In this document: piece by piece, positions 7,975 through 34,800 of the stretch | Layout of the letters: each line of letters begins with the position of its first letter | Position numbering within the stretch: position 1 is the stretch's first letter | Source: Deltaproteobacteria bacterium | GTDB taxonomy: Bacteria > Desulfobacterota > Desulfobulbia > Desulfobulbales > Desulfobulbaceae | Assembly: GCA_024280455.1 (NCBI GenBank) | Contig: JAJRQC010000105.1 | Coordinates: 1-56,003 of the forward strand | Direction of reading: 5' to 3' | Length of the DNA: 56,003 nucleotides | Made by a program: the position numbers and the translations under genes | Notes under the pieces: generated by a model | What the model saw: the letters and a program-made list of their open reading frames with translations, nothing else | Told to the model about the DNA's origin: nothing | Databases searched by the model: none

Positions 7975-8385
7975 CATAAACCAGCATGGCTGGACCAGGA
8001 TTTTACAGGTCACAGCCACAACCAGATAAGCGTAGACTTCGACTATGAAAATAGCCCGGAACGACACAACTTCGCTGGTCATTTTCGGATAAACCAGCAT
8101 GGCTGGACCAAGATTTTTAACGTCACAGCCACAACAAAGCATGAAAATAGCCCGGATCGGCATCACTTCGTGGGCGATTTTCGGATAAACCAGCATGGCT
8201 GGACCAGATTTTTAACGTCACAGCCACAACCAAGGATGAAAATAGCCTGATACGACATCACTTCGTGGGTTATTTTCGGATAAACCAGCATGGCTGGACC
8301 AGATTTTACAAGTCTCAGCCACAACAAACTATGAAAATAGCCCGAAAGACTCCATCTTCGCAGGCTATTTTCGGATACATTGAAA
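7975..8385 (+). repeat. Tandem array of a ~95 bp unit (family 2), four units plus a partial fifth
   Basis: Units begin with CCAGCATGGCTGGACCA at 7981, 8094, 8190 and 8285, giving spacings of 113, 96 and 95 bases. Each unit holds an imperfect palindrome (CCAGCATGGCTGG), the block CACAGCCACAAC and a stem-loop with arms like GAAAATAGCCC and GGGCGATTTTC. The first unit is longer because it carries an 18 bp module AGATAAGCGTAGACTTCG at 8024-8041. The last unit ends in the leader of the histidine kinase gene. A single reverse copy lies at 17188-17340. Confidence 0.85.
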
Positions 8386-8402
8386 GTGGAGGGGGGCCCC
8401 CT

Positions 8403-11336
8403 GTGAACAAAATAAAATTTAAAAATGATCCCTGGCATTGGTTTGTTTTTATAGCGGTACTGACAATCGGGTTTGTTGCCGGAGGCTATTGGTATACTCA
8501 GCAACAAGTCCGGATGGTTTGCAATTCGAAATATCAGGAACTAAGAGCAATAGCGCAGCTTAAAGCCAATCAGATTGCGGCCTGGCGCAAGGAGTCCATC
8601 TTTGGCATTCAGGTCTATGTAAAGAATCCTTTATTCAGGGAATCTGCCGTACGGTGGCTGCAAGAAAGTGAAAACACCCACCTGAAAAATCAACTTCTTA
8701 ACGAATGGAAATTAACCCGAAAATATGGCGATTTCGAGAACATCATCCTCGCCGGTTTGGATGGCAGCGTAAAATTATCACTTAACCCCGATGTAATCAA
8801 GTTGAGTTCCTATGCAAAAAATACTGTCAATAAAGCAATAACCGCGGAAGATGTTGTATTCAGCAATTTCTTCCGAAGCCCTGCCGACGGCGCCGTATAT
8901 ATTGACGTGATGGCGCCGGTTCTGGACACGGCCGGCCAGCCGGCAGCAGTGCTTATTCTGCGACTCGATCCGACAAAAAGCCTGTACCCGCTGATCAAGT
9001 TCTGGCCAGGCCCCAGCACAAGTTCGGAGACTATGCTGGTCAGTAAGGATGGAAATCAGGCCCTGTTCCTGAACAAGCTGCGGCACGATCCTCAGAAGGC
9101 TCTGACCAAACGGTTGCCGCTGACCAGATTAACCAGTCCGGCGGTTCAGTCGGTTTTAGGTCATCAAGGAATTTTCGAGGGCGAAGATTATCGTGGTGTA
9201 ACGGTGGTGGCTGATATTTCTCAGATACCGGATACGCACTGGTACATGGTCACCAAAATAGACAAGAGTGAGATCCTGGCTGATGCCAGCTTTCACGCAC
9301 TTTATATCGGGATTATTGTTCTACTTCTTTTATTGTTGACCGGCGCCGGGAGCGGATTCATTTACAGACACCAACGGGCAAAAATCTACCGGGAACTATA
9401 TAATGCTGAAAAAAAGCACAGTAACATTCTGGAGGAATTCCGGATTATTCTTTACAGTATCGCTGACGGCGTTATTTCGATGGATGAATCAGGCAGAATT
9501 CGTCACATGAATCAGGTGGCCGAAAGGCTTACCGGCTGGAGTGAATCCGAGGCGCGGAACAAACCACTGGCCGAGGTGTTCCAGATTATCCATGAAAACA
9601 CCCGCCAGGCATTGATTGATCCGGGCGAGAGTGTGCTCCAGACGGGCGGGATAGTAAAACTTCCCGGCGACGCCCTGTTGATAGCCCGTGACGGCACGGA
9701 ACATCCGATTGCCGACAGCGCCGCACCGATAAATGGAAAGAGGGACCAACTGCTAGGCATTGTCTTGGTTTTCAGTGACGTTACGGAGGAACGGAAGGCC
9801 CGGCGGGCGCTGCTTGAAAGCGAAAAACGCTATCGCAATTTCTTTATGGAAGATATTACCGGTGATTTTATTTCAACTCCAGAGGGAGAGCTGCTGGATT
9901 GCAACCCGGCATTTGCAAGGATTATGGGAATCAACTCCGCTGAGGAAGCCAACACTCTCAATATGTCAACCCTGTTCTCCTCACATCAGGCAAGCGATGA
10001 TCTTTTAAAGCGTCTCCGTAAAGAGAAAAAAGTGATTGATCATGAGCTGGAAATGCGGCGCGTGGATGGAAAGAGCATCCATGTGATTGAAAACGTCATC
10101 GGAAAATTTGATAACAACGGCAATCTTACTGAAATCCAAGGTTACCTGTTTGACATTACAGAACGGAAGAAGCTGGAGCAACAGCTCTTGCAGGCCCAGA
10201 AGATGGAGGCAGTGGGCCGACTGGCCGGCGGGGTGGCCCATGATTTCAACAACAAGCTCAGTGTGATTATGGGATACAGCGAACTGGCGTTGGAGGAAAC
10301 TGCCAAACAGGGCAGCACCGGGCACGATTATCTTCAGGAAATCCTGAAGGCGGCGCAGCACTCCGCCGATCTCACCCGCCAGTTACTGGCCTTTGCCCGA
10401 AAACAGATCATTGCCCCCAGGGTACTTGAGCTGAACGACACTATAACCAACATACTCAAGATGTTACAGCGGCTTATCGGCGAGGATATTGATCTGGTCT
10501 GGAGGCCCGGCACTGATCTTTGTAAAGTCAAGATCGACCCTGCCCAGGTTGACCAGATACTCGCAAATTTTCTGGTCAATGCCCGGGACGCCATCAGCGG
10601 CGTGGGAAGGGTTGTCATCAGGACAGAGAATGTCGTATTCGATGAAGCCTATTGCGCCGATCATGTCGGATTTTCTCCCGGCGAATATGTTCTGCTGGAG
10701 GTGAGCGATAATGGTTCAGGTATGGAGAAGGAGACGCTGGCAAGTATCTTCGAACCGTTCTTCACGACCAAGGAACATGGTAAAGGAACCGGCCTTGGAC
10801 TGGCGACCGTATATGGGATCGTAAAGCAGAATGAAGGCTTTATCAACGTCTACAGCGAGCCGGGGAAAGGGACAATCTTCCGGATTTATCTGCCCCAGTT
10901 TGCCGACGAAGTTTCCCATGCACCTGCGACACCAGCTCCCGAGGCGGTTCAGCACGGCACAGAAACCATTCTATTAGTGGAAGATGAGGAGACGATCCTG
11001 AAAATGGCCAAACGGATGCTAGAGAATCTGGGTTATACGGTACTGGCGGCCGGCACTCCGCTGGAAGCTCTACATCAGGCCGAGACGTATCAAGACGAAA
11101 TTCACCTGCTGATCACAGACATAGTGATGCCGGAAATGAACGGCCGGGATCTGGCTGACAAGCTCCGTTCCAACAAACCTGCGCTGAGAAACTTGTTCAT
11201 GTCGGGATACACGGCCAATGTCATCGCCCACCGCGGCATCCTGGATGAAGGCGTGCACTTTATTCAGAAACCGTTCTCGATCAAAGACCTCGCAGACAAA
11301 GTACGCGTATCGCTGGAATCTGAAGAGTTGCAGTGA
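8403..11336 (+). CDS. Membrane sensor histidine kinase with two PAS domains and a C-terminal receiver (hybrid kinase)
   Basis: The 977-residue protein starts at the GTG at 8403, eight or so bases after a strong GGAGGGGGG site; an in-frame ATG at 8265 lies inside the tandem repeat and is less likely. In order: membrane segment (about 12-30), a periplasmic Cache-like sensor region (about 35-290), a second membrane segment ([18 protein letters not shown]), PAS domains at about 345-460 and 465-590, and HisKA with phospho-acceptor His613 (GGVAHDFNN). HATPase follows with N-box [15 protein letters not shown] and [13 protein letters not shown], then a receiver domain with phospho-acceptor Asp906 ([12 protein letters not shown]) and the lysine in QKPFS. 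The ligand and the output regulator are unknown. It is convergent with the fdh operon. Confidence 0.92.
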
Positions 11337-11451: not shown

Positions 11452-14280
11452 TTATAACGGTGCTTCTTTTGAACTCTCACGGGGAGCTGCGTTTTTCTTG
11501 CCGACACCGACACCTTCATCATAGCCGTCCTCATCCGCCTTTTCAACACTGACCGCGCAGACCTTGACCTCGGCAATCTTACAGGTCGGATCCAGGGCAT
11601 CATTGGTCAGTATGTTGGCAGCGGCCTCCCGGTAATGAAAAGGTATGAATACAACTTTTTCCGGCACCCGATCCGTTATCCTGACCTTCAGACAAATGGA
11701 GCCGCGGCGTGAGCTCACCCGGGCCATCTCCTCATGGATCAGGCCTATTTTCCTAGCGTCGGCGGGGTTAAGTTCAATAAAGGGTTCCGGGGCCGCCGCT
11801 TCCAGACCTTTGGATCTCCTGGTCATGGTGCCGGTATGATACTGAAAGAGCAACCGACCGGTGGTGAGGACAAACGGATACGCCTTATCCGGTAACTCAT
11901 CCGACTCCACATGGGGAACCTGGGTAAAAAGGGCTTTGCCTTCACTGCCCCGCGGGAATCCATCCTTGAACAGGTACGGTGTTCCGGGATGACTGCGGGA
12001 TGGACAGGGCCATTGCAGTCCCCCCTTTTTCAACCGTTGATAGGTCATGCCCCGCATGGCGTCCCAGAGCAGGAGTGCTTCAAGAAAGGCCTCTTCAGGG
12101 GCGAGATGCGTCCGGTCAATATCCCGGGTATTCTTGCGCTTAAAGCCCAGGTTGGTGACAACCTCGGCAATATGATGGGTCTTGCCGCCCATCCGGGAGG
12201 CGATTTCATTGAGAATAGTCAGGTCGTCTTTTGCCTGACCTGGAGGTGGAACCGCCTTTCTGACCAGCTGCACTCTGCGCTCGGTGTTGGTAAAGGTCCC
12301 GTCTTTTTCGGCAAATGAAGCCGCAGGCAGCACCACATCGGCCAGTTCTGCTGTTTCCGACATGAAAATATCCTGGACAATGAGAAGATCCAGCTTCTTG
12401 AAGGCCGCAGTCGAATGTCGTATATTCGGATCGGACAGGGCAGGGTTCTCACCCATGATATAGAGCGCTTTCAAGGTGCCCTCATGCATGGCCAAGGTCA
12501 TTTCAGTGGCGGTCAGGCCGACTTTTTCCGGCACCGGTACGCCCCACATCTCTTCAAACTTCTGCCGGACCCCAAGGTCAGTCACACTCTGATAACCGGT
12601 CAGGACATTGGGAGAACAGCCCATATCACAGGCGCCCTGGACGTTATTTTGTCCCCGAAGCGGATTTATGCCGCAGGACTCCCGGCCGATATTACCGGTG
12701 AGCATGGCGAGGTTGGCAAGGGCGTGGACATTATGGGTGCCCATGGAATGCTGGGTAATGCCCATGGCATAATAGATCCCGGCCCGATCCGCTTCAGCAT
12801 AGATTCTTGCCGCCTTGACGATATCCGCCGCCGGTACGCCGGTGATCTTTTCGCCGTAAAAAGGGGTGAACTCCTGCAGCGACTTTTTAAATTCCTCAAA
12901 ACCTTCCGTCTTCTCACCAATAAAGGTGTTGTCCTCACGCCCTTCATCAAGAATCACGTGCATGATGGAGTTGACCAGGGCGGTGTCGGTTCCCGGCCGC
13001 TGTCTGAGCCAGAGGGCTGCAAACTTGACCAGTGGTATTTTTCGCGGGTCGGCAACAATCAGCTTTGCGCCGTTGAAAACCGCCTTTTTCATGGCCAGGG
13101 CGACAATGGGATGGTTTTCGGTGGTGTTGGAGCCGATGACAAAAAGGGCATCATTCTTTTCTATTTCCGCAATCGAGTTGGTCATTGCGCCGGAACCGAA
13201 TTTAGCAGCCAGACCGGCTACCGTGGCGGAGTGTCAGTAGCGGGCACAGTGGTCAATATTATTGGTCCCGATCAGGGTACGGAAAAACTTCTGGAAGATA
13301 TAATTTTCCTCATTTGTGCACCGGGCTGAAGACAGGCCGCCGATGGCATCCGGCCCATGCTCCTCTTTAATCCTCTTCAAGCCGGAAACGACAAAATCCA
13401 GGGCCTCATCCCAGGAAACCGGTTCCAGATCTCCATCTTTCCGTTTGCGGACATAGGGCGTTTTGAGACGATCGGAGCGGTTGATAAATTCATAGCCAAA
13501 GCGTCCTTTAACACAGAGCCAGCCATGGTTATGGCTGTCTTTCTTGGAAGAAACCCTGATCACCTGGTCACCGATGGTATGCAGGGTCAGTGAACAGCCG
13601 CAACCGCAGTAGGGGCAGGTTGTGTCCGTATACTTGACGTTCTTCTGACGGCTCAGGCCCGCCCAGGCCTTACCGGTCAAGGCGCCGGTGGGACAGATGG
13701 CAACACATTGTCCACAGAATTCGCAATCCAGATCCTTTTCAAAGGCCGGGGCTATCTTGGCATCAAAACCCCGGTAGGCGAAATCAATGGCTCCGCCCCC
13801 CTGGATTTCGTCACAGACCCGGACGCAGAGGCCGCAGAGCACACATTTGTTCATCTCCCGCTTGATAAAGGGGTTCTCATCAATCCGGTCATGGTCGCGC
13901 ATCTCACCATGAAAACGATTCTCCCGCAGCTTGTAAAAATAGGCCAGTTCCTGCAGGGTACAGTCGCCGGCCCTGGCACAGACCATGCAATCATTGGGGT
14001 GGTCGGACAGAAGCAGCTCGACGATCGTCCGCCGCAGACGATAGAGATGGTCACTTTCGGTATTGACGACCATACCCTCGGCAGCCGGTGTGGTACAGGC
14101 GGTAACGGGCCGGGGAACGCCCTCAACCTCGACAATACACAACCGGCAGGCCCCAAAGGGCTTGAGACGGTCATCGTGACAAAGGGTAGGAATTTCGATC
14201 TCAAGTTCATGCGCCGCCTCCAGGAGCGTAGTTCCGTCATGAACCTCGGTTTCGATACTGTTTATAGTGAGGCTGATCAT
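11452..14280 (-). CDS. fdhA: Formate dehydrogenase catalytic (alpha) subunit, selenocysteine-containing, NuoG-like N-terminus
   Basis: One 942-residue protein spans an in-frame TGA at 13236-13234, which encodes selenocysteine at residue 349 in the context HCARY-U-HSATVAGL, the active-site motif of Sec formate dehydrogenases. The N-terminus carries a [2Fe-2S] site (Cys34, 45, 48, 62), a His-Cys3 cluster (His94, Cys98, 101, 107) and two ferredoxin clusters (Cys146-156 and Cys186-196). These are followed by the molybdo/tungstopterin domain with its [4Fe-4S] site (CPYCGCGC ... WLCVKG). It oxidises formate to CO2, or reduces CO2, and passes electrons to the NuoF-like subunit encoded upstream (gap five bases). 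Automated callers will split it at the TGA into 13234-14280 and 11452-13185. Confidence 0.96.
13192..13236 (-). other. SECIS-like hairpin for selenocysteine insertion in fdhA
   Basis: Directly after the UGA, the transcript reads UGACACUCCGCCACGGUAGC followed by CGGUCUGGCU. The segment AGCC-GGUCU-GGCU forms a four-pair apical stem closed on a GGUCU loop about 16-20 bases after the UGA. The bacterial SECIS of E. coli fdhF has the same GGUCU loop at the same distance. This is the expected SelB-binding element; selA, selB and selC are not in the window. Confidence 0.8.
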
Positions 14281-14285
14281 TGTTC

Positions 14286-16070
14286 CTACTCCTTTAACAC
14301 TGCACTGAATTTACAGTTATCATAACAGGTTCCGCATTTAATACAGGCTGCGGTCGTGATATGGTGCGCTTCTTTTTTCTCTCCTGTTACCGCTCCGACC
14401 GGACATACCCGTTTGCACATACCACAACCCACACACAGATCATCACGAATAAAAAAGGTGAGCAGCTTTCGGCAGACCTTGGCCGGGCATTTCTTCTGGT
14501 GAATATGGGCCTCATATTCATGACGAAAATATTTTATAGTGCTGAGAATGGGGTTTGGCGCCGATATACCCAGTCCGCAGAGGCTTGAATCCCTGACATC
14601 CCGGCCCAGATCCTGCAAGAGCTCGATGTCACCTTCTTTGCCGTCGCCCTCGGTAATCCTGGTCAGTATTTCCAGGAGCCGCTTGGTCCCCAGACGGCAG
14701 GGGATGCATTTTCCGCAGGATTCGGCCTGGGTGAACTCCAGGAAAAACTTTGAGATATTGACCATGCAGTCGGTTTCATCAAGGACGACCATGCCGCCGG
14801 AACCCATCATCGAGCCGACACTTCTCAGGCTTTCGTAATCAACCTTGATGTCGATATGCTGTTGAGGAATACAGCCCCCGGACGGCCCACCGGTCTGGAC
14901 GGCCTTAAACAACCTGCCCCCTTCAATGCCGCCACCGATCCCGAAGATGATATCTTTAAGGGGGATACCCATGGGCACTTCGATCAGACCGGTGTTGCGG
15001 ATCTTTCCGGTCAGAGCGATAACCTTGGTTCCCCTGCTCTTCTCACAGCCGATTGATGCAAACCACTCGGTTCCCTTGGTAAAAATGTGGGGCAGGTTGG
15101 CAAAAGTCTCCACGTTGTTGATAATAGTGGGCTTGCCCCACAGGCCCTTCTGGGCGGGGAATGGCGGTTTTGCCCTCGGCATGCCGCGTTCACCCTCAAT
15201 GGAGGCGATCAGGGCCGTTTCTTCGCCGCAGACAAAGGCCCCGGCCCCGAGCTTCACTTTTATATCAAAATCAAAGTCTGAACCGCAGACGTTTTCACCC
15301 AGATAGCCGGAGTCTCTGGCCTGCTGCAGGGCGATATTCAATCGTTCAACCGCCAGGGGATATTCCGCCCTGATATAGACATAGCCGTAATTCGACCCAA
15401 TGGCATAGGCACCGATTATCATCCCTTCGATGGCGGAGTGTGGGTTGCCTTCAATAACGGATCGATCCATAAAGGCGCCGGGGTCACCTTCATCGGCATT
15501 GCAGATGATATAACGGATGCCCGATCCGTTGCCGGCACAGATTTCCCACTTCAGGCCGGTAGGGAATCCAGCCCCGCCCCTGCCCCTGAGACCGGATTCT
15601 TTCACAAATTCAACAACCTCGGACGGGGTCATTGCGGTCAGGGCTTTTTTTGCGGCCTCGTACCCGCCGATTTCCTCGTAGGAGTGGATATCTTCGGGAT
15701 CAACCCTGCCGTTGTCCGCCAAAACCACCTTGGTCTGATTTTCATGGAAATTATGATATCCTTCATCCACCAGCCAGTCTTCGACCGGCCTTGCCCCGAG
15801 AACATGTTCCCTGACGATTCTGGGAACCATGTGCGGCTGAATATACTGATAGGTCGAGCTTTCACCGTCCAGGGTCACGTCCACCAGGACATCTTTGGCA
15901 CAGAAACCGCGGCAGCCGACCTTATGCAGGGCACAGTGTTTCTCGACCCTGCCGTTGACAAGACCTGCCTCTTCAAAGGCTGCAAGAAAGGCATCCATGA
16001 CCTTTTCACCACCGGCGGCTATGCCTCCGGTTCCCATACACACATTGACCACTATCTCTCTGGTATCCAC
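14286..16070 (-). CDS. NADH-binding (NuoF-like) subunit of NAD-dependent formate dehydrogenase
   Basis: This 594-residue protein has an N-terminal thioredoxin-like [2Fe-2S] domain (CMGTGGIAAGG ... CALHKVGCRGFC), the FMN-binding motif GRGGAGFPTGLKW, the NAD-binding region GAGAFVCGEETALIASIEG and the [4Fe-4S] ligand motif ESCGKCIPCR. A C-terminal tandem ferredoxin domain follows (CVGCGMCKRVCP and CIKCGTCYDNC). The length and layout match HydB/HndC/FdhB-type diaphorase subunits of soluble NAD-linked or electron-bifurcating enzymes. It lies between the NuoE-like gene (gap three bases) and fdhA, so it should carry electrons between formate and NAD(H). Whether ferredoxin is also used cannot be told from the sequence. 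Confidence 0.93.
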   Translation of the reverse strand: MDTREIVVNVCMGTGGIAAGGEKVMDAFLAAFEEAGLVNGRVEKHCALHKVGCRGFCAKDVLVDVTLDGESSTYQYIQPHMVPRIVREHVLGARPVEDWLVDEGYHNFHENQTKVVLADNGRVDPEDIHSYEEIGGYEAAKKALTAMTPSEVVEFVKESGLRGRGGAGFPTGLKWEICAGNGSGIRYIICNADEGDPGAFMDRSVIEGNPHSAIEGMIIGAYAIGSNYGYVYIRAEYPLAVERLNIALQQARDSGYLGENVCGSDFDFDIKVKLGAGAFVCGEETALIASIEGERGMPRAKPPFPAQKGLWGKPTIINNVETFANLPHIFTKGTEWFASIGCEKSRGTKVIALTGKIRNTGLIEVPMGIPLKDIIFGIGGGIEGGRLFKAVQTGGPSGGCIPQQHIDIKVDYESLRSVGSMMGSGGMVVLDETDCMVNISKFFLEFTQAESCGKCIPCRLGTKRLLEILTRITEGDGKEGDIELLQDLGRDVRDSSLCGLGISAPNPILSTIKYFRHEYEAHIHQKKCPAKVCRKLLTFFIRDDLCVGCGMCKRVCPVGAVTGEKKEAHHITTAACIKCGTCYDNCKFSAVLKE

Positions 16071-16073
16071 TGT

Positions 16074-16541
16074 TTATTCCCTGATGCTTTTTATTTTCTT
16101 AACCGCCTGGTCAGGAGTCACGTTGCCATGGACCTTTTCATTGACAATAAGAATAGGAGCGATGCTGCAGGCCCCGACACAGTTGACCGTTTCAAGGGTG
16201 AACATCCCGTCTCTGGTCGTATCCTGGTCGCCCTTTAAGGAAAGCTCGGTCCGGAGTCTGGAAATCATCCGGTCAGCCCCCTTTACATGGCAGACTGTTC
16301 CGCAACAGGCGGTAATGATGTTCTCTCCCCGTGGATGGAGATGGAACTGGGCATAAAACGTTGTGATTCCAAAAAATTTACTGGCCGGGACCGTGGTCTT
16401 TTCTGCAAACCAATGCACGGCCTCTTCCGGAACATAGCCAAAGGTTTCCTGGATATGCTGCAAAACAGAAATAATATTCTCATCGCCGGAGTTAAACCCG
16501 TCGAGGATGGTTTCGAGTTTTTTTTCCTGCTCTTGTTCCAT
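16074..16541 (-). CDS. NuoE-like thioredoxin-fold [2Fe-2S] subunit of formate dehydrogenase
   Basis: Starting at the ATG at 16541 (MEQEQEKKLETILDGF), the protein has 155 residues, the usual NuoE/HydC size. An upstream in-frame start at 16628 would add a tail without family features. The helical N-terminal part (VLQHIQETFGYVPEEAVHW) precedes the thioredoxin-fold ferredoxin. Its [2Fe-2S] ligands sit in TACCGTVCHVKGA and NCVGACSIAP. It is the first gene of the operon with the NuoF-like gene and fdhA, and completes the three-subunit soluble enzyme. Confidence 0.92.
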   Translation of the reverse strand: MEQEQEKKLETILDGFNSGDENIISVLQHIQETFGYVPEEAVHWFAEKTTVPASKFFGITTFYAQFHLHPRGENIITACCGTVCHVKGADRMISRLRTELSLKGDQDTTRDGMFTLETVNCVGACSIAPILIVNEKVHGNVTPDQAVKKIKSIRE

Positions 16542-16730
16542 TGCTCTTGATCTCTTGAGGTTAACTGTCAAAAAAAGATGAGGGGCGGGAAGACAAAAAG
16601 ATACAAGCAGTTGCGTTTTTAAGCCCAAAAGAAAAAGACAGGGCCGGGAGGGTCTTTGTATTTATGCACTGTATATGAGGAATCATCTACTAAGGCTGCA
16701 TAAGAGTATGGATGTGTACTATTTTTATAT

Positions 16731-18032: not shown

Positions 18033-21000
18033 CTATCTGGCCATGGTCATCGGGAAAACAGCACCATCGGCTTTCCGGATTCTATTCTCCCATAGCGGGC
18101 ACTGTTTACGGATACATTCCCGGTTGGCAGCATACTGGCTGCAATGGAGCGCCGTTTCAGCCTGCAGGGTGAGGCCGAAGTATGCCTGCGACAGAGCGGC
18201 CGTGCGGGTCAAAACCAGCCAGGCTTCCCGCTGGCAGCACCGACCGCCGATAATTTCGGCAACAGCAGCCAGAATATCGGCAGAAAAGGCCTGGGCCTTC
18301 TGCCGTGGGTACGGGGTCAAAGGCGTTGCATTCAGAATTAGAGCTGCGGCAATACCAGATCCGATGACAGCTCCGCAGCTGCCCCAGAAACCACAGGCGC
18401 CCCCGGGAACCTTGCTGCCTCGCTCTATTCCGGCCAGGATATCGTCATCGCTCACCTGACCGCCGCTGTTGCGGCAGGCGGCCAGGATCACTCCGGGCAT
18501 CATGGCATGATGTTCAGGGCCGTGTATGGGGACGGTTGGGTGACTTCTGATGGTGGTGAGCAAGGCCAGCATATCCCGCTCACTGCTCTGCAGACAGATA
18601 TGGCGGATAACCTCTATAGCCTCCTGCTGATGGCAGCCGTCACAGATAAAATGACCCGTTGTACAGACACTGTTGCTCTTATCCACCGTGCCGCAGAAAT
18701 GACAGGACCGATCCTTTGCTTCATTGCTGTAGACCAGTTCCTCGCCACAGACCATACAGCCGCTGCTGTGTCTGCGTATGGGCACCGCCCGTTTCCGTTC
18801 TTTTTGGGTGGCGGTCTCAGGGGTCGTGGAACAGCAGCACGATTCCTGCTCAATATTAGTGATGGCACCCGCATCATCAAGGACAAAGACCGAATCATCA
18901 CAGCATGCGAGCTCCTGTACAGGGAGCAGGGAAATACAACCACGCCTGAGCAAGGTTCCATGTTCCGTCTGTAGAGCGCGATACGGCCCCCTGTACACCA
19001 CACGCACCGTAGCTTCTTCCTCGAGCTGTTCAGGTTTTCTTGCCTCATAGGTCAACGAAAAAAACCGATTACCCTGGACTTCACGATATGGATAACGTTT
19101 ATGCAGGCGCAGGCCGACAAACCCGCAGTCTTCAAGCATCCGGGCCAGATCATCCTGCTGCATGGCACCACCAAGGCATTCTCCCCGCCAGCGCGCGGAG
19201 TGACCAATAGCAGCAGTTACAGGCACATCGGTAACAATATCGGCAACAATCATCCGACCACCGGGTTTAAGCACCCGCATGATCTCCAGATAGGTCTTGC
19301 GTTTATCCGGACTGAGGTTAATGACACAGTTGGAGATCACCACATCGGCACAGCCGTCCTCAACCGGAAGATCCTCAAGAAATCCCTTGCGGAACTCAAC
19401 CGTATCAAAACCAAGCTCACCGACAACTTCCTTTTTAGAAGACTCCGCCAGGGCCAGCATGTCATCGGTCATATCGACCCCGATCACCCGACCGGTGGGC
19501 CCCACCTCTCTGGCGGCAAGAAAACACTCAACCCCGCTGCCGGAGCCCAGATCAATCAGCGTCTCGCCGACTGCAGGTGCGGCATCTTTGACCGGACTGC
19601 CGCAGCCGTAGGAGCGTTCTTTGGCCACCAGCGGGATGAATCCGTCCTGCTCACCGGCCGGGGCCATGGGATTGACAATATCCGTCTTGGCCACCCGGGC
19701 CGCAGAGGCATAAAATTCACGCACCGAACTATGGCCGTCGGTCCCCGAGAGTGAAACAACACAGTTGCAATGAGTGAGAACAACCTCACTCCCCTCTTCC
19801 TGCGGGCAGTCGTAACGGACATCGCCCATCCGCAATCGAAACATTCCCTGATCAGGATATTTTTTTGCCTGTTCAACGATCAGGGCCAGCATCAAATGTT
19901 CATACAGGGGCAGGTACGGATCATGGCCGACAAAGCCTTCGCCGGTTACCCAGGAATGATCCGGATCACCGCCGCCGGTCAGAAGGCCGAAGGAGCTTTC
20001 CTGCCAGTTGGAGGCATCGACCAGAGAACTGTTTCTGATTTTCTCCAGGATGAGACTCTCCGTAAAGACCCGTTGCAAACCGTTTTCAACATTTCCGCAG
20101 GCAAGTTCATCAATCCGCACCAGGGCCGGTGAAGGGTATATTTTTCCGTCCGCCCCCACAGCCATCGACTCCCAGCCCATATTGCTCAGATCATGCCGGG
20201 TGCCGGGCAGGGTAAAAACCTGGGATTTCAAGCCCTCCAGATTATCTATCTGCAGATCCAGTTCCCGACAGACGGCGGCGGTCTCAAGGATTGGAGACAG
20301 CAACTGTTCCGGATCAACGAATTGAGTCTCTTCACCCTTGCCGCGGATGAAATGAAACATGAAATGAATGCCGCTTGCCCCCATCTTCTTTGCCTGCCGG
20401 GCTATCTCGGGCAGCTGGTCCGCATTGACCTGATTGACGGCCACGGAAATGGTCAGGCTTAATCCCTGATTCCGGACGGCAGTGAGGTTTTCTTTAAGTA
20501 CGGCAAAGGTGCCGGGTCCCCGCAAACCGTCATGGGCCTCTTCCAGCCCGTCCAGGCTGACCTGAAGGTGCAGACGATCACAATCAAGCGATTTCAGCTG
20601 GGTAAGATGTTCCTTCAATAACAACCCATTGGTTAACACCACCGCATGGGCGTCGGAAGCCTGGGCCTGAACATGGGCCAGTACTTTAGTAAACTCAGGA
20701 TAAACAAAGGGTTCGCCACCGGTAAAATAAAAGAGACGACAACCAAGGGCAGCACCTTCTTCAATGGCGGCAAACAAAACATCCCGGTCAAGGGTTGTCT
20801 GCTTTGCCGGGGAGGCTGCAAACAGACAGTGACGACAGGACAGGTTGCAGGTATCGGTTACATGAAACCACAACTCCTTTGGTGAACCAAGCTGCAAACT
20901 GTGACTGCGACCCCGGTAGGGCTGTATTTCCTGATGATTGAGTAACCGGACAAGCTGCTGGTAATCAGCCCCGGCCTCATGATGACCAACGCCCTGCTCC

Positions 21001-21164
21001 TGACATAAACGATCAAGCCCCAACTCAATGGTCGTCTCTTTCTGCAGGCAGGTGAGCAATCCATCAATCCGGCTTGACGGCACAAACCAGTCTGGAAGCA
21101 GGGGGTCGATATAAACGGCCACACCACCGAATTCATGACGGTGGAGCCGGGAAAAACAGTCCAT
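18033..21164 (-). CDS. Fusion of radical SAM, ArsM-like methyltransferase and DUF5714 modules
   Basis: This 1043-residue protein has three modules. Residues 95-370 form a radical SAM domain with the cluster motif CNLSCRHC (Cys106, 110, 113) and GGEP at 149-152; a short SPASM-like segment (GADGKIYPSPAL) lacks the usual cysteines. Residues about 480-710 are a class I methyltransferase of the arsenite methyltransferase family, with YGCGSP (Cys521), DLGSGSGVECFLAARE, SNCVINLSPDK (Cys613) and GECLGGA (Cys663); these are the three cysteines expected in ArsM. Residues about 795-1043 are a cysteine-rich DUF5714-like domain (CMVCGEELVY, CHFCG, CDGCH, HGPEHHAMMP). The overall reaction is unknown to me; a thiophilic element or a peptide could be the substrate. 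A small membrane-protein gene precedes it by 30 bases. Confidence 0.85.
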   Translation of the reverse strand: MDCFSRLHRHEFGGVAVYIDPLLPDWFVPSSRIDGLLTCLQKETTIELGLDRLCQEQGVGHHEAGADYQQLVRLLNHQEIQPYRGRSHSLQLGSPKELWFHVTDTCNLSCRHCLFAASPAKQTTLDRDVLFAAIEEGAALGCRLFYFTGGEPFVYPEFTKVLAHVQAQASDAHAVVLTNGLLLKEHLTQLKSLDCDRLHLQVSLDGLEEAHDGLRGPGTFAVLKENLTAVRNQGLSLTISVAVNQVNADQLPEIARQAKKMGASGIHFMFHFIRGKGEETQFVDPEQLLSPILETAAVCRELDLQIDNLEGLKSQVFTLPGTRHDLSNMGWESMAVGADGKIYPSPALVRIDELACGNVENGLQRVFTESLILEKIRNSSLVDASNWQESSFGLLTGGGDPDHSWVTGEGFVGHDPYLPLYEHLMLALIVEQAKKYPDQGMFRLRMGDVRYDCPQEEGSEVVLTHCNCVVSLSGTDGHSSVREFYASAARVAKTDIVNPMAPAGEQDGFIPLVAKERSYGCGSPVKDAAPAVGETLIDLGSGSGVECFLAAREVGPTGRVIGVDMTDDMLALAESSKKEVVGELGFDTVEFRKGFLEDLPVEDGCADVVISNCVINLSPDKRKTYLEIMRVLKPGGRMIVADIVTDVPVTAAIGHSARWRGECLGGAMQQDDLARMLEDCGFVGLRLHKRYPYREVQGNRFFSLTYEARKPEQLEEEATVRVVYRGPYRALQTEHGTLLRRGCISLLPVQELACCDDSVFVLDDAGAITNIEQESCCCSTTPETATQKERKRAVPIRRHSSGCMVCGEELVYSNEAKDRSCHFCGTVDKSNSVCTTGHFICDGCHQQEAIEVIRHICLQSSERDMLALLTTIRSHPTVPIHGPEHHAMMPGVILAACRNSGGQVSDDDILAGIERGSKVPGGACGFWGSCGAVIGSGIAAALILNATPLTPYPRQKAQAFSADILAAVAEIIGGRCCQREAWLVLTRTAALSQAYFGLTLQAETALHCSQYAANRECIRKQCPLWENRIRKADGAVFPMTMAR

Positions 21165-21194: not shown

Positions 21195-21803
21195 TTACAC
21201 ACCCGGGGGTGGTGGTGGAGTGGCTTCATTTTTCGGCGGCGGAGGTAACATACGCCGTCGTTTGACTTCATATACAGACAGCACAAAAAGGGTGGCAAAG
21301 GGCTGGGTAAACAATACCCCGATACCGGTTGAGTTACCGATGGAATTCAGGACCAGGAAAACGGCGATTACGGCAATATGTTCACTGACAGGAGGCTGCA
21401 GGGCCATGCGGCCACTCTCCTTAACAGCCTCGACCAGGCCCAGTTCCTGATCGGTCATAAGCGGCATCATGTACATGCAGAAAAAGCTTACGGCGAGGAT
21501 AACCGCGATACCCGGAAGGACCAGCATGGAAAACCCGATTCCAAAGATCAGGACGACAAGAATCGTGAAGGCCAGTAGCGGGAAAAAAAGCCGCATGTAG
21601 CCAAAAAGATCACCAACCTCGGGTTTTCGATTCTCCCGAACCAGAAGCAGCAGGGACTGCATGTACCCCGCCATCAACACCGGGGACATAATACCCAGGG
21701 TAATTGCGGAGCAGGCCAACAGCACCAGGGTGGAGATCAACAGGGCGGCCAGATTGGCGACAAACAGGCTCCAGGTCTGTTCAAGATGGGCTTTAAAATC
21801 CAT
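21195..21803 (-). CDS. Polytopic membrane protein with a proline-rich tail
   Basis: The ATG at 21803 follows a good GGAAGGA site, giving 202 residues. The protein has about five hydrophobic segments (for example ALLISTLVLLACSAITLGIM, LLAFTILVVLIFGIGFSML and AVIAVFLVLNSIGNSTGI). It ends in a cytoplasmic-looking tail RRRMLPPPPKNEATPPPPPG. The helix pattern resembles small DUF4013-like integral membrane proteins, but I do not assign a function. It lies 30 bases upstream of the radical SAM/ArsM/DUF5714 gene in the same direction, so the two are probably co-transcribed and may act together, for instance in anchoring or transport of the product. Confidence 0.7.
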   Translation of the reverse strand: MDFKAHLEQTWSLFVANLAALLISTLVLLACSAITLGIMSPVLMAGYMQSLLLLVRENRKPEVGDLFGYMRLFFPLLAFTILVVLIFGIGFSMLVLPGIAVILAVSFFCMYMMPLMTDQELGLVEAVKESGRMALQPPVSEHIAVIAVFLVLNSIGNSTGIGVLFTQPFATLFVLSVYEVKRRRMLPPPPKNEATPPPPPGV

Positions 21804-21959
21804 ACAAATCCTTCCGTAGAAAAAAGAGTACGCTACTGCTGAATTTCCCGGCACACACAGAGAATCACAAGCAACGTATAACGAGAAAAAATATTGAAAT
21901 TGATATCATAAACAGAGCCGACGGTTCCGACAAGGATGATTTTTTTTTGCGGACATCGG

Positions 21960-23327
21960 TTATCCCTGGAATAACTGCTCCACCAGGGCCCCAACCGTGC
22001 GGATCGGAATAACCTTCATGGCAGCGGACGCCGCACCGTCAAGCTGGCGCAGACTGGACTCGGGCATAAGAAACGTCTTGAAACCGAGCCGGTCAGCCTC
22101 GCGCAGGCGCATCTCCATCTGGCCCACAGCCCGGACCTCACCGGCCAGACCAACCTCTCCGCAGACCACGGTTGTCGGATCCACCACCTTTTCAAACAGG
22201 CTGGAGAGCAGGGCCACCACCACCCCGAGATCCAGAGCCGGCTCGTCAATCCGAATGCCGCCGGCAATGTTAAGGAAAATATCATGGTCAAAAAGAGTGA
22301 CCCCGAGCTTTTTCTCCAGCACTGCGGTGAGCAGAGCCAACCGCTGCGGATCGGCGCCAATGGCAGTTCGCCTGGCCGTACCCAGGCTTGAAGGACTGAC
22401 CAGGGCCTGAACCTCGACCAGGATGGGCCGAGTGCCCTCAACACTGGGCATAACCACGGAACCGGGCACATTAACCGGGCGCTCGGCAAGAAACAGGGCT
22501 GAAGGATTCTCAACCTCGGCCAGCCCGGTCTCCTTCATCTCAAAAACACCGATTTCGTTGGTGGAACCGAAACGGTTTTTGACCGTGCGCAGAATACGAA
22601 ACATCTGACCGCGATCGCCCTCAAAATAGAGGACCGCATCCACCATATGCTCCAGAACTCTCGGCCCGGCTATGGCCCCATCCTTGGTGACATGACCGAC
22701 AAGCAGCACCGGCAGGTCACTGGATTTGGCCAGGGCAAGCAGACGGGCGGTGGACTCCCGGACCTGGGTAACGGAGCCGGGGGCGGAGCCGACATCTTCG
22801 GTAAACATGGTCTGGATGGAATCAACGGCCAGAAGAGCCGGGGACATCTCAGAGGCCATGGCGATGATAGATTCCACACAGTTTTCCGTGGCCACAAAAA
22901 TTCCATCATCATTAATCTGCAGTCGATCGGCCCGCATACGGACCTGGCGAATGGATTCCTCCCCGGTGACATAGAGCACCCTGCGCTCGCCGCCGGTCAA
23001 TGCCGCCAGCAACTGGAGAATAAGCGTTGACTTGCCGATTCCCGGGTCACCGCCGATAAGGACCATGGAACCGGGCACAATCCCGCCGCCAAGCACACGA
23101 TCCAGTTCACCGATACCAGTCATCAGCCGATCCTGGTCACTTCCGGCCGGGCCGGAAAGGGGCAGCGGGGTGGAAACATTCTTCCGGGAGGAAACGCTCA
23201 CAACCCGCTGCTGCCTGGCAAGGCTGTCCCACTGGCCGCAGTCCGGACAGCGGCCAAGCCACTTCCGACTCTCGTAACCACACTGGCCGCAGACAAACAG
23301 GTGTTGTTCTTTTTTCTTAGCGGCCAT
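21960..23327 (-). CDS. radA: DNA repair protein RadA (Sms)
   Basis: The protein has 455 residues from the ATG at 23327 (MAAKKKEQHLF); a TTG at 23348 is an alternative start. It has the N-terminal zinc finger CGQCGYESRKWLGRCPDCG, a RecA-like ATPase with Walker A GDPGIGKST, the RadA-specific motif KNRFGSTNEIGVFEM and a C-terminal Lon-like domain (GGIRIDEPALDLGVVVALLS). RadA is a hexameric helicase-like protein that processes branched recombination intermediates. It is a complete copy of normal length and stands alone on its strand. Confidence 0.96.
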   Translation of the reverse strand: MAAKKKEQHLFVCGQCGYESRKWLGRCPDCGQWDSLARQQRVVSVSSRKNVSTPLPLSGPAGSDQDRLMTGIGELDRVLGGGIVPGSMVLIGGDPGIGKSTLILQLLAALTGGERRVLYVTGEESIRQVRMRADRLQINDDGIFVATENCVESIIAMASEMSPALLAVDSIQTMFTEDVGSAPGSVTQVRESTARLLALAKSSDLPVLLVGHVTKDGAIAGPRVLEHMVDAVLYFEGDRGQMFRILRTVKNRFGSTNEIGVFEMKETGLAEVENPSALFLAERPVNVPGSVVMPSVEGTRPILVEVQALVSPSSLGTARRTAIGADPQRLALLTAVLEKKLGVTLFDHDIFLNIAGGIRIDEPALDLGVVVALLSSLFEKVVDPTTVVCGEVGLAGEVRAVGQMEMRLREADRLGFKTFLMPESSLRQLDGAASAAMKVIPIRTVGALVEQLFQG

Positions 23328-23423
23328 AATCAATGAAGGTGCTCCCAAGAGGAAGGCTTTCCCGACAGGGAGCCTGAAACCGAAAATAAAGAAAATTATT
23401 CATAACATGTATTGTATATAACC

Positions 23424-23745: not shown

Positions 23746-24672
23746 ATGCGACAATTTTTCCTGCCGGTCGGCCTGCTGTTTGCAATCTTTTTTGCCGTGC
23801 TCCTGCCCGCCGGCGGCATCTTTATCTCGGAAAACAACGGCTTGAAGATATTGGTCTTCATCATCTTTCTGGTCAGCGGTTTTCAGACCGGCGGCAAAGG
23901 CATTGCTCTGGGTAGACGGCTTGTCCTGGTTTTTCTGACCGCAGCTGCAATCTCCCTCTTCCTCTCGCCGCTGCTTGGGCTTCTCATAACCCGGATTATC
24001 CCCTTCCCCCAGGCCCTGGCAATAGGACTTATCGTCATTGCCGCGGTCCCGCCTACCCTCTCCTCCGGCATCATCATTACCGAGGTCAGCCGGGGCAATG
24101 CTGTGCTGGCCCTGATTTTGACCGTTTCCCTCAACCTGCTGGCCATTTTCACCATGCCCTTTATGCTCGATCTCTGTCTCAAGGCGGCAGGTCCGATTGA
24201 TATCGACCAGAACAGACTGTTCGTCAAAATGCTTTTTTTAGTTCTTCTGCCCTTTGCAATCGGTAAAACTACCAGAACGCTCAGTGGAATAAACCGAATA
24301 TCGCCGAACTGGAGTTACGTTAACTCAAGCTGTGTTATCCTGGTGGTCTACGGTTCTTTTGCTGTTTCAAAAAACGGTTTTTCAGGGCTGGGTGTTGCCG
24401 AATACGCCATGATTCTGGGCTCTGTCGCCCTGCTCCATTTCCTGCTTCTGGCCATCAACGCCCAGGCGGGAAAGATACTTCATCTGCCGGTGGCGGACCG
24501 CAAGGCCCTGGTCTTTGTCGCCTCCCAGAAAACCCTGCCCATCAGTGTGGCCGTGCTGACCAGCATCAGCGTTGATACCGGCAGCGCAGTCATCGTCTGC
24601 CTCATGTTCCATTTTTTCCAGCTCTTTGTGGATTCCTTTCTCGCCGTCTGGCTCATGAAAAGACCTGTATGA
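23746..24672 (+). CDS. SBF-like (bile acid:sodium symporter superfamily) membrane transporter
   Basis: This 308-residue protein has about nine to ten hydrophobic segments. It shows the family pattern of a central motif AVPPTLSSGIIITEVSRGN and a late motif VASQKTLPISVAVLTSI, which resemble the crossover regions of BASS-family carriers. Its length is typical of the SBF-like (YfeH-type) branch rather than Acr3. It probably co-transports an organic anion with sodium or protons; the substrate is unknown. It stands alone and is followed by a REP-like inverted repeat. Confidence 0.8.
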   Translation: MRQFFLPVGLLFAIFFAVLLPAGGIFISENNGLKILVFIIFLVSGFQTGGKGIALGRRLVLVFLTAAAISLFLSPLLGLLITRIIPFPQALAIGLIVIAAVPPTLSSGIIITEVSRGNAVLALILTVSLNLLAIFTMPFMLDLCLKAAGPIDIDQNRLFVKMLFLVLLPFAIGKTTRTLSGINRISPNWSYVNSSCVILVVYGSFAVSKNGFSGLGVAEYAMILGSVALLHFLLLAINAQAGKILHLPVADRKALVFVASQKTLPISVAVLTSISVDTGSAVIVCLMFHFFQLFVDSFLAVWLMKRPV

Positions 24673-31813: not shown

Positions 31814-34800
31814 ATGAGCAGCTCAAAGAAAAAAAAATTTCGCTTTTCCATTGATCGGGGCGGCACCTTCACCGACGTGTATGCCGAGGTTCCAGAAAAG
31901 CCGGGTTTTGCAATCGTCAAACTGCTCTCCGTCGATCCTGCCAATTATGACGATGCACCCCGTGAAGGAATCCGTAGAATTCTCCAGCAGTACTGTCCAG
32001 AAGCTATTTCCGGTGACCTGATAGACCCCTCATGTATCGAGTGGATCAGAATGGGAACCACGGTTGCCACCAATGCCCTGCTTGAACGAAAGGGCACCCG
32101 CTGTGGGCTCCTGGTCAGCCGGGGATTTGTTGATATTCTCCGAATCGGTGACCAGACCCGGCCCCATCTCTTTGATCTGAAAATCCGCAAACCGGATTTG
32201 CTCTATGAGCAGGTACTCGAAGTAAATGAACGGATCCGCCTGCTCCACAAAGATGAACGGACAGAGGGTGAACTTCTCACCGGGGTCACCGGAGAGCAAT
32301 TCTTAATCCTGGAAAAGCCGGATTATGCTCTGCTTGAACCTCAACTGCAACAGATGCTGGCCGTGGGCATTACCAGCCTGGCCGTTGTCTTCATGCATGC
32401 CTATGCATGCCCGCAACATGAGCAAGAGGTAGGTCGTCTGGCCTCAAATCTCGGTTTTACCCAGGTCTCACTTTCCTCTCAGGTCATGCCTATGATCAAG
32501 CTGGTGCCCAGGGGCGACACGACTCTGGTCGACAGTTATCTCACGCCACAAATTCAAGCCTATATTGAAAGCTTCAGGAAAGGATTTGTTGGAGAATTAC
32601 AGAATACCCGCCTGCAGTTCATGCAATCGGATGGCGGACTGACCCGTGCCGATGATTTCAGCGGCAGCCGGGCAATTCTCTCAGGGCCTGCCGGTGGGGT
32701 GGTGGGCTATGCCATGACCACCTATAATCAATCAACAAAAAAACCGGTGATCGGTTTTGATATGGGCGGAACTTCCACCGATGTCTCGCGTTATGGCGGA
32801 AAATACGACCTCTGCTTTGAAAGTCAAGTTGCCGGGGTTCGAATACAGGCCTCGCAGCTTGACATTCGAACGGTGGCCGCCGGAGGAGGCAGCCGTCTGT
32901 TTTTTGAGCAGGGCATGTTTCAAGTCGGCCCGGAATCCTCCGGTGCCCATCCCGGGCCTGTCTGTTACCGAAAAAAGGGCCACCTGTCCCTGACCGATGC
33001 CAATCTGGTGCTTGGCCGTCTGCAGCCCCGGTATTTCCCGACGATTTTCGGTCCTGATGATGACCAGCCCCTTGACCTGGATGGTGCCCGTGCAGCCATG
33101 CAGGCCCTGACCGATCGGATCAATGCCGCCTATAAGCAAAAAAATCTTCCGCTCTTGAGCATGGAAGAGGTTGCACTTGGATTTATCCAGGTAGCCAACG
33201 AACAAATGGTTCGACCAATTAGAGAAATTTCGGTAATGCGGGGCTTTGACGTCAAAGAGCATGTCCTTGCCACCTTTGGCGGTGCAGGTGGGCAACATGC
33301 CTGTGCCATTGCCCGCAGTCTGGGGATAGAGACGATTTATATTCACCGCTTTGCGGGTATTCTTTCCGCCTATGGCTTAGGCCTCGCTGACACGGTTGCC
33401 CAGCGGCACCAGTCATCCTCTACCCCTTATGGCCGGAACGTGGTACCCGCTCTCTTGAAAAAACTTGATCGCCTGCAAAAAGAAGCTGAGCAGGAGCTTA
33501 CGAATCAGGGGATTTTAAAGAAAGACATCAAAAGTCTGCGCTACTTGAATCTCAGATACCAGGGCACGGATACTGCGCTCATGATAGAGAAACCAGCGCA
33601 TGGAGATTTTGCTGAGGTTTTTCGCACCACATATCAACACGAATTCGGTTTTGACCTTCCTGATCGTGCCATCTTTGTCGATGATCTCAGAGTGGTGTCG
33701 ATGGCCGCTGAATCCAAGCCTGTTGAAAACATCCCTGAACAAAAAAAACAGCGTCTGGAACCTGTTGATCGCATCCCCTGTTATTTTTCCGACGAATGGG
33801 TGGACACCAGCCTCTATCGTGTGGAAAGTATACCTCCTGGTCAGCCCATATCGGGCCCGGCTATTCTTCTGCAGGGTACTTCAACCATTGTAGTGGAGCC
33901 TGACTGCAGTGCGCTGAAAAACAGGGTCGGTGATATTGAAATTTCCGTTGAGCGGTTGCAACAGATTGAGTTGTCCCGTCAGGTCCATCCCGTGCAGCTT
34001 TCCATATTTAACAATCTGTTTATGTCCATTGCCGAACAGATGGGGCGAATGCTGCAGAAAACAGCTATTTCAACAAATATTAAGGAACGGCTCGACTTTT
34101 CCTGCGCCCTCTTTGATGCCCGCGGGAACCTGGTTGCCAATGCGCCCCATGTCCCGGTTCACCTGGGCTCCATGAGTGAAGCGGTCAAGGAGCAGATTCG
34201 ACGAAATCCTGATATACGACAGGGAGAGGTGCTGCTGTCCAATCATCCCCTGGCAGGAGGCAGCCACCTGCCCGATATGACCGTCATTACCCCGGTTTTC
34301 CAGGATCAAAAGGTTATTTTTTATGTGGCCAGCCGGGGACACCATGCCGATATCGGTGGCATGACGCCCGGATCCATGCCGCCGGACTCAAGACAGCTTG
34401 CCGATGAAGGAGCAACGATTCTCAGCTTCAAGCTGGTTACAGGCGGCACATTCCGGGCGGAAGAAATAGCTGAACTCCTGAAGGAGAGCAGATGCCTGAA
34501 CGACACCCTGTCCGACCTCAAGGCCCAGGTTGCAGCCAACCGGAAGGGCATTGAGCTGATTGAGGAAATGGTGCAACGCTACAGCCTGGATGTGATCCAC
34601 GCCTACATGGGCCATGTGCAGCATGCGGCTGAACAGGCCGTTCGGGCAAGCCTTACCCGGATAGCCAGGGAACGTGGTTGTTCCGGCAAACCGATCATCG
34701 CCACTGAATACCTTGATGACTCCAGTCCGATCAATCTCCAACTGACCATTAACGGGGATGACGGCAGCGCAGTCTTTGATTTCGCCGGGACCGGCCTGGA

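Follow-up and report, generated by a model that had tools for sequence, protein, structure and literature searches.

The closest described counterpart of the gene reported here is a pair of enzymes, ArsM (NF008823 or NF038099), an S-adenosylmethionine (SAM) methyltransferase with arsenic-site cysteines, and ArsS (TIGR04167), a radical SAM enzyme; the ArsS paper is said to be that of Cheng et al. (2021). Radical SAM enzymes form C–As bonds, ArsS by adenosylation on the way to arsenosugars and ArsL in arsinothricin synthesis (PMC12159101 and PMC8552651, in their accessible parts). ArsM repeatedly occurs with an additional module: NCBI lists selenoprotein fusions of ArsM to AhpD (NF041537) or DUF2284 (NF041536) domains, and a one-chain ArsR–ArsM fusion has been described in Brevundimonas (PMC10190100, accessible part). 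Here we analyze a gene from a 56,003-nucleotide stretch of DNA (the window; contig JAJRQC010000105.1) of a sulfur-cycle deltaproteobacterium of the family Desulfobulbaceae. It encodes a radical SAM module, an ArsM-like methyltransferase and a DUF5714 tail in one chain, hereafter the fusion.

We consider it an evenly balanced proposition that the fusion is a one-chain organoarsenical synthase that takes the place of ArsM and ArsS in the opening steps of an arsenosugar-type pathway. Among known systems, the fusion comes closest to the ArsM/ArsS organoarsenical route. Like that pair, it combines an arsenic-site-cysteine SAM methyltransferase with a radical SAM enzyme and keeps company with TIGR04282 and TIGR04283 genes, which NCBI names arsenosugar-biosynthesis glycosyltransferases, and its nearest sampled standalone ArsMs include members of such operons. 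Unlike the pair, it is a single chain in which radical SAM precedes ArsM, has no TIGR04167 match, and carries an additional Cys-rich DUF5714 tail and an N-terminal RRE-like domain. The ArsM and ArsL pair resembles our reading of the fusion in that a radical SAM enzyme and ArsM build two kinds of C–As bond, but does so from separate genes of an inducible ars operon that also encodes a transporter (PMC8552651, accessible part); similarity of the fusion to the arsinothricin system was seen on the ArsM side only (NF040538, 184 bits, cutoff 500). The two NCBI selenoprotein fusions also join ArsM to a further module, but with selenocysteines, another partner domain and model names that do not include radical SAM, and the partner in ArsR–ArsM is a transcriptional repressor, not a second C–As catalyst (PMC10190100, accessible part).

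Three modules in one chain

The fusion gene proved to be a single 1043-residue frame, as the initial annotation of this DNA had claimed, and it lies on the minus strand, which that annotation had not given; the plus strand read from 18033 is interrupted by many stops. The other structural claims also held: the CNLSCRHC radical SAM motif, three ArsM-type cysteines (Cys521, Cys613 and Cys663) and a Cys-rich, DUF5714-like tail were all found, and Pfam placed Methyltransf_31 (residues 533–679, E 7e-31) between the Radical_SAM and DUF5714 matches (Table 1). The combination of the three modules in one chain is thus confirmed. An AlphaFold model of the whole protein had a predicted local distance difference test score (pLDDT) of 74.6 and a predicted template-modelling score (pTM) of 0.61.

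The middle part is closest to solved ArsMs both by sequence (phmmer, 5evj, E 1e-32) and by fold (4fr0, Foldseek E 4e-17). C521, C613 and C663 align with the cysteines in YGCG, SNCV and GECL of 5evj and 4kw7; the usual ArsM numbers of these residues are 72, 174 and 224 (PDB titles name the mutants C72A and C224A). All three are kept in 26 of 26 non-redundant full-size relatives (34–85% identity), as are C453, C468, C547, C803, C806, C821 and C824; the region of the fourth, N-terminal ArsM cysteine, where the fusion keeps C453 and C468, did not align with solved ArsMs. The radical SAM cysteines C106, C110 and C113 form the CxxxCxxC motif that ArsS membership requires and are present in 25 of the 26, the exception (L117) being a record that starts after these residues. 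Given this conservation, the match to the ArsM and radical SAM cysteines is not due to chance. The best NCBIfam match of the middle part, in which the ArsM-type similarity spans residues 518–701, was the arsenite methyltransferase PRK11873 (NF008823), at 208 bits against a cutoff of 263, and we therefore call the module ArsM-like rather than file it under NF008823; standalone ArsMs in ArsS operons likewise fall below that cutoff (246 and 249 bits). Scores for the ArsM–AhpD and ArsM–DUF2284 models were 129 (cutoff 510) and 119 bits (cutoff 575).

Judged by its sequence, the radical SAM part is not ArsS. Among its best 25 of 83 NCBIfam families, no curated cutoff was reached, and neither TIGR04167 (300-bit cutoff) nor TrsS appeared. 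Membership in the TrsS/TrsM system was considered and rejected, the methyltransferase scoring 73.8 bits with NF045667, whose cutoff is 155.

DUF5714 scored 192.9 bits against a Pfam gathering score of 26.2, and 20 Cys or His residues between C803 and C1022 are kept in at least 90% of relatives. A CxxC...CxxC stretch, which we take to be zinc-ribbon-like, precedes the domain, which is predicted to be mostly helical and contains H881, H885 and H886 with eight conserved cysteines from C857 to C1022. Its AlphaFold model (pLDDT 82) gave no clear fold match (best Foldseek E 0.6, best VIA Z 3.9), and similarity to the redox family C_GCAxxG_C_C was weak (E 0.002–0.05, under cutoffs). A role as metal or substrate holder, as initially suggested, is plausible from these residues. 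The DUF5714 region is shared with MbdU (NF045648; 139 bits, positions 4–269 of 468) and with standalone DUF5714 proteins, the latter differing from the fusion in having a frame with no radical SAM or ArsM module.

One such standalone protein is encoded elsewhere in the window's genome (L131:5030–5815, in G000:C59; L, G and C numbers are our handles for loci, genomes and contigs, G000 being the window's genome) and matches the N-terminal half of MbdU at 382 bits. MbdU is a double selenoprotein; a selenocysteine extension of that type is not supported for L131, the frame behind its TGA closing within six codons. At L212 a standalone DUF5714 gene adjoins a TrsS-type radical SAM gene (NF045646, 545 bits; 8311–9117 and 9122–10417, both minus strand), and at L213:8477–9295 (plus strand) another lies directly beside a radical SAM gene of the same cluster as that of L212. 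Here DUF5714 is again paired with radical SAM, this time in separate genes.

Table 1. Features of the fusion gene and two of its neighbours in the window
Feature	Positions	Strand	Basis
Fusion gene, 1043 aa, ATG to TAG	18033..21164	minus	intact single frame
Predicted beta3-alpha3 N-terminal domain (residues 1-75)	20940..21164	minus	model secondary structure; Foldseek 5wgg, 469 columns
Radical SAM core (residues 102-257)	20394..20861	minus	PF04055, E 3e-20
CNLSCRHC [4Fe-4S]/SAM motif (residues 106-113)	20826..20849	minus	kept in 96% of 26 relatives
GGGDPDHS, conserved (residues 397-404)	19953..19976	minus	alignment of relatives
ArsM-like methyltransferase module (residues 480-720) with C521, C613, C663	19005..19727	minus	Pfam, NCBIfam, solved-ArsM alignment, Foldseek
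Cys-rich stretch: C803, C806, C821, C824, C834, H838, C841, C844, H845, C857	18594..18758	minus	alignment of relatives
DUF5714 (PF18978; residues 853-1025): H881, H885, H886, C924, C930, C976, C977, C1008, C1017, C1022	18090..18608	minus	Pfam (E 4e-57) and alignment
UPF0259-like membrane protein (below cutoff), upstream neighbour	21195..21854	minus	within 8 kb of fusion at 8/56 loci
RadA/Sms, housekeeping neighbour	21960..23348	minus	within 8 kb of fusion at 7/56 loci

Distribution and genomic company

A search for the same three-module order, which the initial annotation had recommended together with a tabulation of contexts, found all modules in one frame at 52 of the 56 fetched fusion loci. 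At the remaining four, DUF5714 lies in another frame (L124, L207) or radical SAM is missing from the frame (L146, L223). In L124 (G052) and L207 (G187) the fusion occupies two frames, of 741 + 342 and 761 + 334 residues, either a split gene or a frameshift. The closest named locus is that of a Desulfobulbus metagenome-assembled genome (MAG; L032, 85% identity). In a 394-genome sample of the phylum, DUF5714 was present in 54 genomes, and in 32 of these it lay in frames of at least 988 residues, all 32 with the three modules; three further genomes with split or edge-cut copies (G052, G187, G277) bring the number with the fusion to 35. Among 151 genomes of the phylum of L044, which we take to be Armatimonadota, nine had DUF5714 and four (G440, G520, G530, G495) had fusion-size frames, in which the modules were seen. 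Among 201 genomes of the phylum of L070, a Litorilinea MAG, two had DUF5714, both of standalone size. The fusion is spread across sulfate-reducing and related Desulfobacterota and some Armatimonadota.

We built a tree of 88 ArsM domains, 24 from representative fusions and 64 from standalone ArsMs (L047–L110), with a midpoint root and several long branches. The 24 fused domains formed one clade (support 100/93), and this clade, together with the 52 one-frame loci, indicates that the fusion is no assembly accident. Nine standalone ArsMs grouped with the fused clade (99/92); of these, L047–L050 lie in ArsM–ArsS–TIGR04282 operons and L051 beside a TIGR04283-type gene. Candidate split relatives of the fusion in Verrucomicrobia, from tblastn over both modules, were rejected: the second gene resembles the L057 protein and is ArsS-like on that basis (TIGR04167 was confirmed for L047 only), and it is no close kin of the fusion's radical SAM part.

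Across the 394 genomes, TIGR04283 was present in 32 of the 35 with the fusion versus 164 of the 359 without it (p 6e-8), and ArsS in 1 of 35 versus 122 of 359 (p 3e-5). The 196 genomes with TIGR04283 comprise 116 with ArsS only, 31 with the fusion only, one with both (G360) and 48 with neither. This near-exclusion suggests that the fusion and ArsS lead to an equivalent product. With the window's order left out, the differences remained for both TIGR04283 (19/22 versus 163/353, p 2.5e-4) and ArsS (1/22 versus 121/353, p 0.002). Within the window's family, genomes at least 90% complete had TIGR04283 in nine of nine cases with the fusion (G012 below cutoff) versus 5 of 14 others (p 0.003); the family counts exclude G011, G016 and G022, which hold edge or partial DUF5714 pieces, and treat the broken frames of G006 and G019 as fusions. 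Of the 19 genomes that have DUF5714 without the fusion, four contain ArsS and four contain TIGR04283, a lower TIGR04283 frequency than in other genomes (p 0.017).

In the window's genome itself, TIGR04283 and TIGR04282 matches lie four bases apart on another contig than the fusion (G000:C136:24617–25865). Within the part of this contig fetched as L252, the TIGR04283 gene is near MutM, a neighbour of the fusion in other members of the order. ArsS had no match in this genome at E<=1e-45. The fusion was the genome's only NF008823 match at E<=1e-45, and no second strong ArsM was found by this search, which misses some ArsMs, as it recovers ArsM in only 15 of 35 ArsS genomes. Of the 35 fusion genomes, 27 had the fusion as sole NF008823 match, seven had further ones, and G277, where a contig end cuts the gene, had none.

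The neighbourhood differs between lineages. Elsewhere than in the window's order, 8 of 22 phylum-sample fusion genomes had TIGR04282 or TIGR04283 types within 8 kb of the fusion (L187, L188, L193, L195, L200, L202, L205, L207), where even a generous 1% per locus predicts 0.2. Over all 56 fusion loci such genes were found at 9, versus none of 35 standalone-DUF5714 loci (p 0.011), in counts that use profiles built in this analysis from some of these same genes and that treat as standalone L211, possibly a fusion truncated by the contig edge at which it begins. The NCBI TIGR04283 model exceeded its cutoff at eight of the nine places, the ninth (L205) depending on our TIGR04282 profile alone; at L187 both transferases exceeded the NCBI cutoffs (230 versus 182 and 193 versus 134 bits). 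A MerA-like flavin adenine dinucleotide (FAD) oxidoreductase and a membrane protein with no NCBIfam match, presumably TVP38-like, accompany the fusion at 12 and 14 of the 56 loci, versus one each of the 35. In two places beside the fusion, TIGR04282- and TIGR04283-type parts appear to be fused in one gene (L200:10864–12339, 491 residues; L130:2871–4172, 433 residues). Four loci of the phylum of L044 encode a DUF4127 protein (PF13552, as scanned in L044) on the strand opposite the fusion, adjoining it or nearby (L044:6173–7687, L045:6188–7639, L228, L236).

By contrast, the recurrent neighbours in the window's order are RadA, the UPF0259-like protein or MutM (within 8 kb at 9/56 loci; presumably MutM/Fpg, a label we read from its sequence). 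With such partners the synteny there is of a housekeeping kind, and the idea that these genes form a functional operon with the fusion was rejected; the UPF0259-like neighbour is not thought to be part of the fusion's function. Homologues with one functional module in random surroundings, which the initial annotation had named as refuting its reading, were not the pattern observed: much of the window's order shows conserved synteny with housekeeping genes, and some of the other lineages show an arsenosugar-type context. Ten window genes were scanned, including RadA, the UPF0259-like protein, a TPR protein, Nuo-like genes, RsmB and a GGDEF protein. Also in the window, genes for a thioredoxin-like 2Fe-2S protein (NuoE/HoxE-like), a NuoF-like and a NuoG-like protein stand in a row (13234–16628, minus strand), with a further large gene at 11452–13185; the set looks like a nicotinamide adenine dinucleotide (NAD)-linked formate dehydrogenase or hydrogenase-type module. 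A 1235-residue frame at 31814–35521 (plus strand) has a start that, to our eye, reads like hydantoinase/oxoprolinase.

A proposed synthase and its alternatives

What the data show directly are the intact modules, the conserved motifs, the single clade of fused ArsM domains, the adjacency and co-occurrence with TIGR04282 and TIGR04283 and the near-exclusion with ArsS; arsenic as the substrate, the order of the steps, the group transferred and the role of DUF5714 are inferred. The ArsM module would use SAM to methylate trivalent arsenic bound by C521, C613 and C663. The radical SAM module would cleave a further SAM at the C106/C110/C113 cluster and make another C–As bond, most likely with 5′-deoxyadenosyl as in ArsS, although this transfer is a guess, because the radical SAM part is not ArsS. 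The DUF5714 and Cys-rich tail may hold, hand over or reduce the arsenical, and the product would then pass to the two glycosyltransferases encoded together on the other contig. On this reading the bond would be the work of another radical SAM lineage, whose transferred group might not be the same. That this is a previously undescribed route of anaerobes, in which a chain with a non-ArsS-type radical SAM module performs both C–As steps of arsenosugar synthesis and channels the toxic trivalent arsenical via a Cys-rich DUF5714 carrier, we put forward tentatively, at somewhat less than even likelihood. Of the two products first suggested for a two-step reaction, the organometalloid is favoured by the TIGR04282/TIGR04283 company, the avoidance of ArsS and the kinship with ArsM, while the modified sulfur compound gained nothing.

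Several observations weigh against the synthase. On the protein side, the radical SAM part shows weak core similarity to ArsS proteins (27–63 profile bits), no TIGR04167 match at E<=1e-45 was seen in the window's genome among the best 5 scored of 17 first-look candidates, and the predicted RRE-like N-terminus points to kinship with peptide-maturing enzymes. The standalone relatives L051–L055 carry N-terminal LCCP cysteines; the fusion lacks them in the equivalent segment but retains C453 and C468. The ArsM tree has a midpoint root and a biased sample, since the 64 standalone ArsMs were found via peptide patterns of the window protein. In the co-occurrence data, the 48 TIGR04283 genomes with neither ArsS nor fusion and the three fusion genomes with no TIGR04283 (G246, G376, G421) do not fit; the E<=1e-45 threshold used for TIGR04283 is more permissive than the curated cutoff (196 versus 179 genomes), so that G012 falls below the cutoff and, by E-value, G193, G329 and G345 (fusion genomes, family f81) probably do; and the p-values ignore relatedness. 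With all genomes of the window's family the TIGR04283 association is weaker (12/16 with the fusion versus 9/19, p 0.17), and of its nine fusion-free TIGR04283 genomes G008 alone was tested for ArsS, which it has. As to context, only one of the 30 loci from the window's order (L130, of the same genus) has the glycosyltransferases within 8 kb, the 35 standalone-DUF5714 loci come from several phyla with varied flanks and are no matched control, and 'arsenosugar' is NCBI's name for TIGR04282 and TIGR04283, for which we found no supporting experiment.

An unlikely but substantial alternative is an organoarsenical synthase of another kind, which would attach a different SAM-derived group, such as 3-amino-3-carboxypropyl as with ArsL, or act at a later sugar or lipid step, the glycosyltransferases again using the product. 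A radical SAM part that is not ArsS, the existence of ArsL-type chemistry with an ArsM partner (PMC8552651, accessible part) and the fact that no data fix the transferred group agree with it; the near-exclusion with ArsS among TIGR04283 genomes, which suggests an equivalent product, does not.

Anaerobic arsenic detoxification or resistance, with ArsM methylating for disposal while the other modules adjust redox state or deal with Fe-S, would also account for the retained arsenic-site cysteines, and an SBF-like transporter, the sole transporter among the ten scanned genes, is encoded on the opposite strand at a distance of 2.6 kb (23746–24672, plus; PF13593, 151 bits). Broadly, this transporter shares a superfamily with ACR3, an arsenite pump, but NCBIfam gives no match for it and its cluster is not among the recurrent neighbours. 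No ars regulator was seen among the identified neighbours, not every one of which was scanned. The earlier statement that no ars regulator or arsenite pump is adjacent holds for the ten window genes. The absence of arsenic context stands for these genes but not elsewhere, arsenosugar-type genes being near the fusion in other lineages. Since, moreover, the synteny with RadA and MutM is housekeeping and plain methylation needs no conserved radical SAM site, we regard detoxification as quite improbable.

In its first ~470 residues the fusion has the overall fold of RRE–radical SAM–SPASM peptide maturases of the 5wgg and SkfB type, being closest to the sactipeptide maturase 5wgg (Foldseek E 2e-15, TM 0.73 by target), which we take to be CteB; the best radical SAM fold matches of the AlphaFold model were 5wgg, anSME, SkfB, ChlB and SuiB. 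Residues 1–75, the predicted beta3-alpha3 domain, in our view resemble the PqqD/RRE-type domain of such enzymes. The module might then act on a peptide, as in ribosomally synthesized and post-translationally modified peptide (RiPP) maturation, with the methyltransferase methylating it and DUF5714 binding a metal or carrier. This N-terminus is shortened in several relatives, however (e.g. L116, L036), and PqqD was absent from the 25 Pfam families listed for 13 members and from those for residues 1–485 alone. Pfam SPASM matched only one of the 13 (E 0.0046); between residues 260 and 450, C356 is the sole conserved cysteine (88% of 26 relatives), and the SPASM auxiliary-cluster cysteines were not found, GGGD.DHS replacing the SPASM pattern at what we take to be the position of the cluster cysteines. 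Joined as it is to a partner that keeps ArsM arsenic-site cysteines, unlike a generic methyltransferase, the radical SAM module is very unlikely to serve a RiPP-like modification.

Selenium, tellurium, antimony or a thiol as the true substrate of the methyl-transfer and radical pair is highly improbable: the DUF5714 score to the selenoprotein family MbdU, the presence in L212 of a separate DUF5714 gene next to that of TrsS, a radical SAM '(seleno)protein', and the selenoproteins among NCBI's ArsM fusions are outweighed by a fusion frame that needs no TGA read-through, the absence of recognised selenium genes among the identified neighbours and the TIGR04282/TIGR04283 association.

In the open-licence PMC literature (subscription journals lay outside this scope) we found no paper naming DUF5714 and recognised none describing a radical SAM–ArsM–DUF5714 fusion. 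PRK11873 ArsM is counted among selenoproteins in PMC9312934 and PMC2398784, the former also counting TIGR04167 among them; the accessible parts of both contain nothing on the fusion.

If the fusion is the organoarsenical synthase proposed here, it bears on the question, open to our knowledge, of which microbes other than cyanobacteria and algae make arsenosugars and arsenolipids, particularly in anoxic sediment. The fusion gene is a marker missed by ArsS-based surveys, being present in 31 of the 79 TIGR04283-positive, ArsS-negative genomes of the sample. Its product is one protein that can be purified and that may couple two C–As bond-forming chemistries, and the gene provides a first functional hypothesis for DUF5714.

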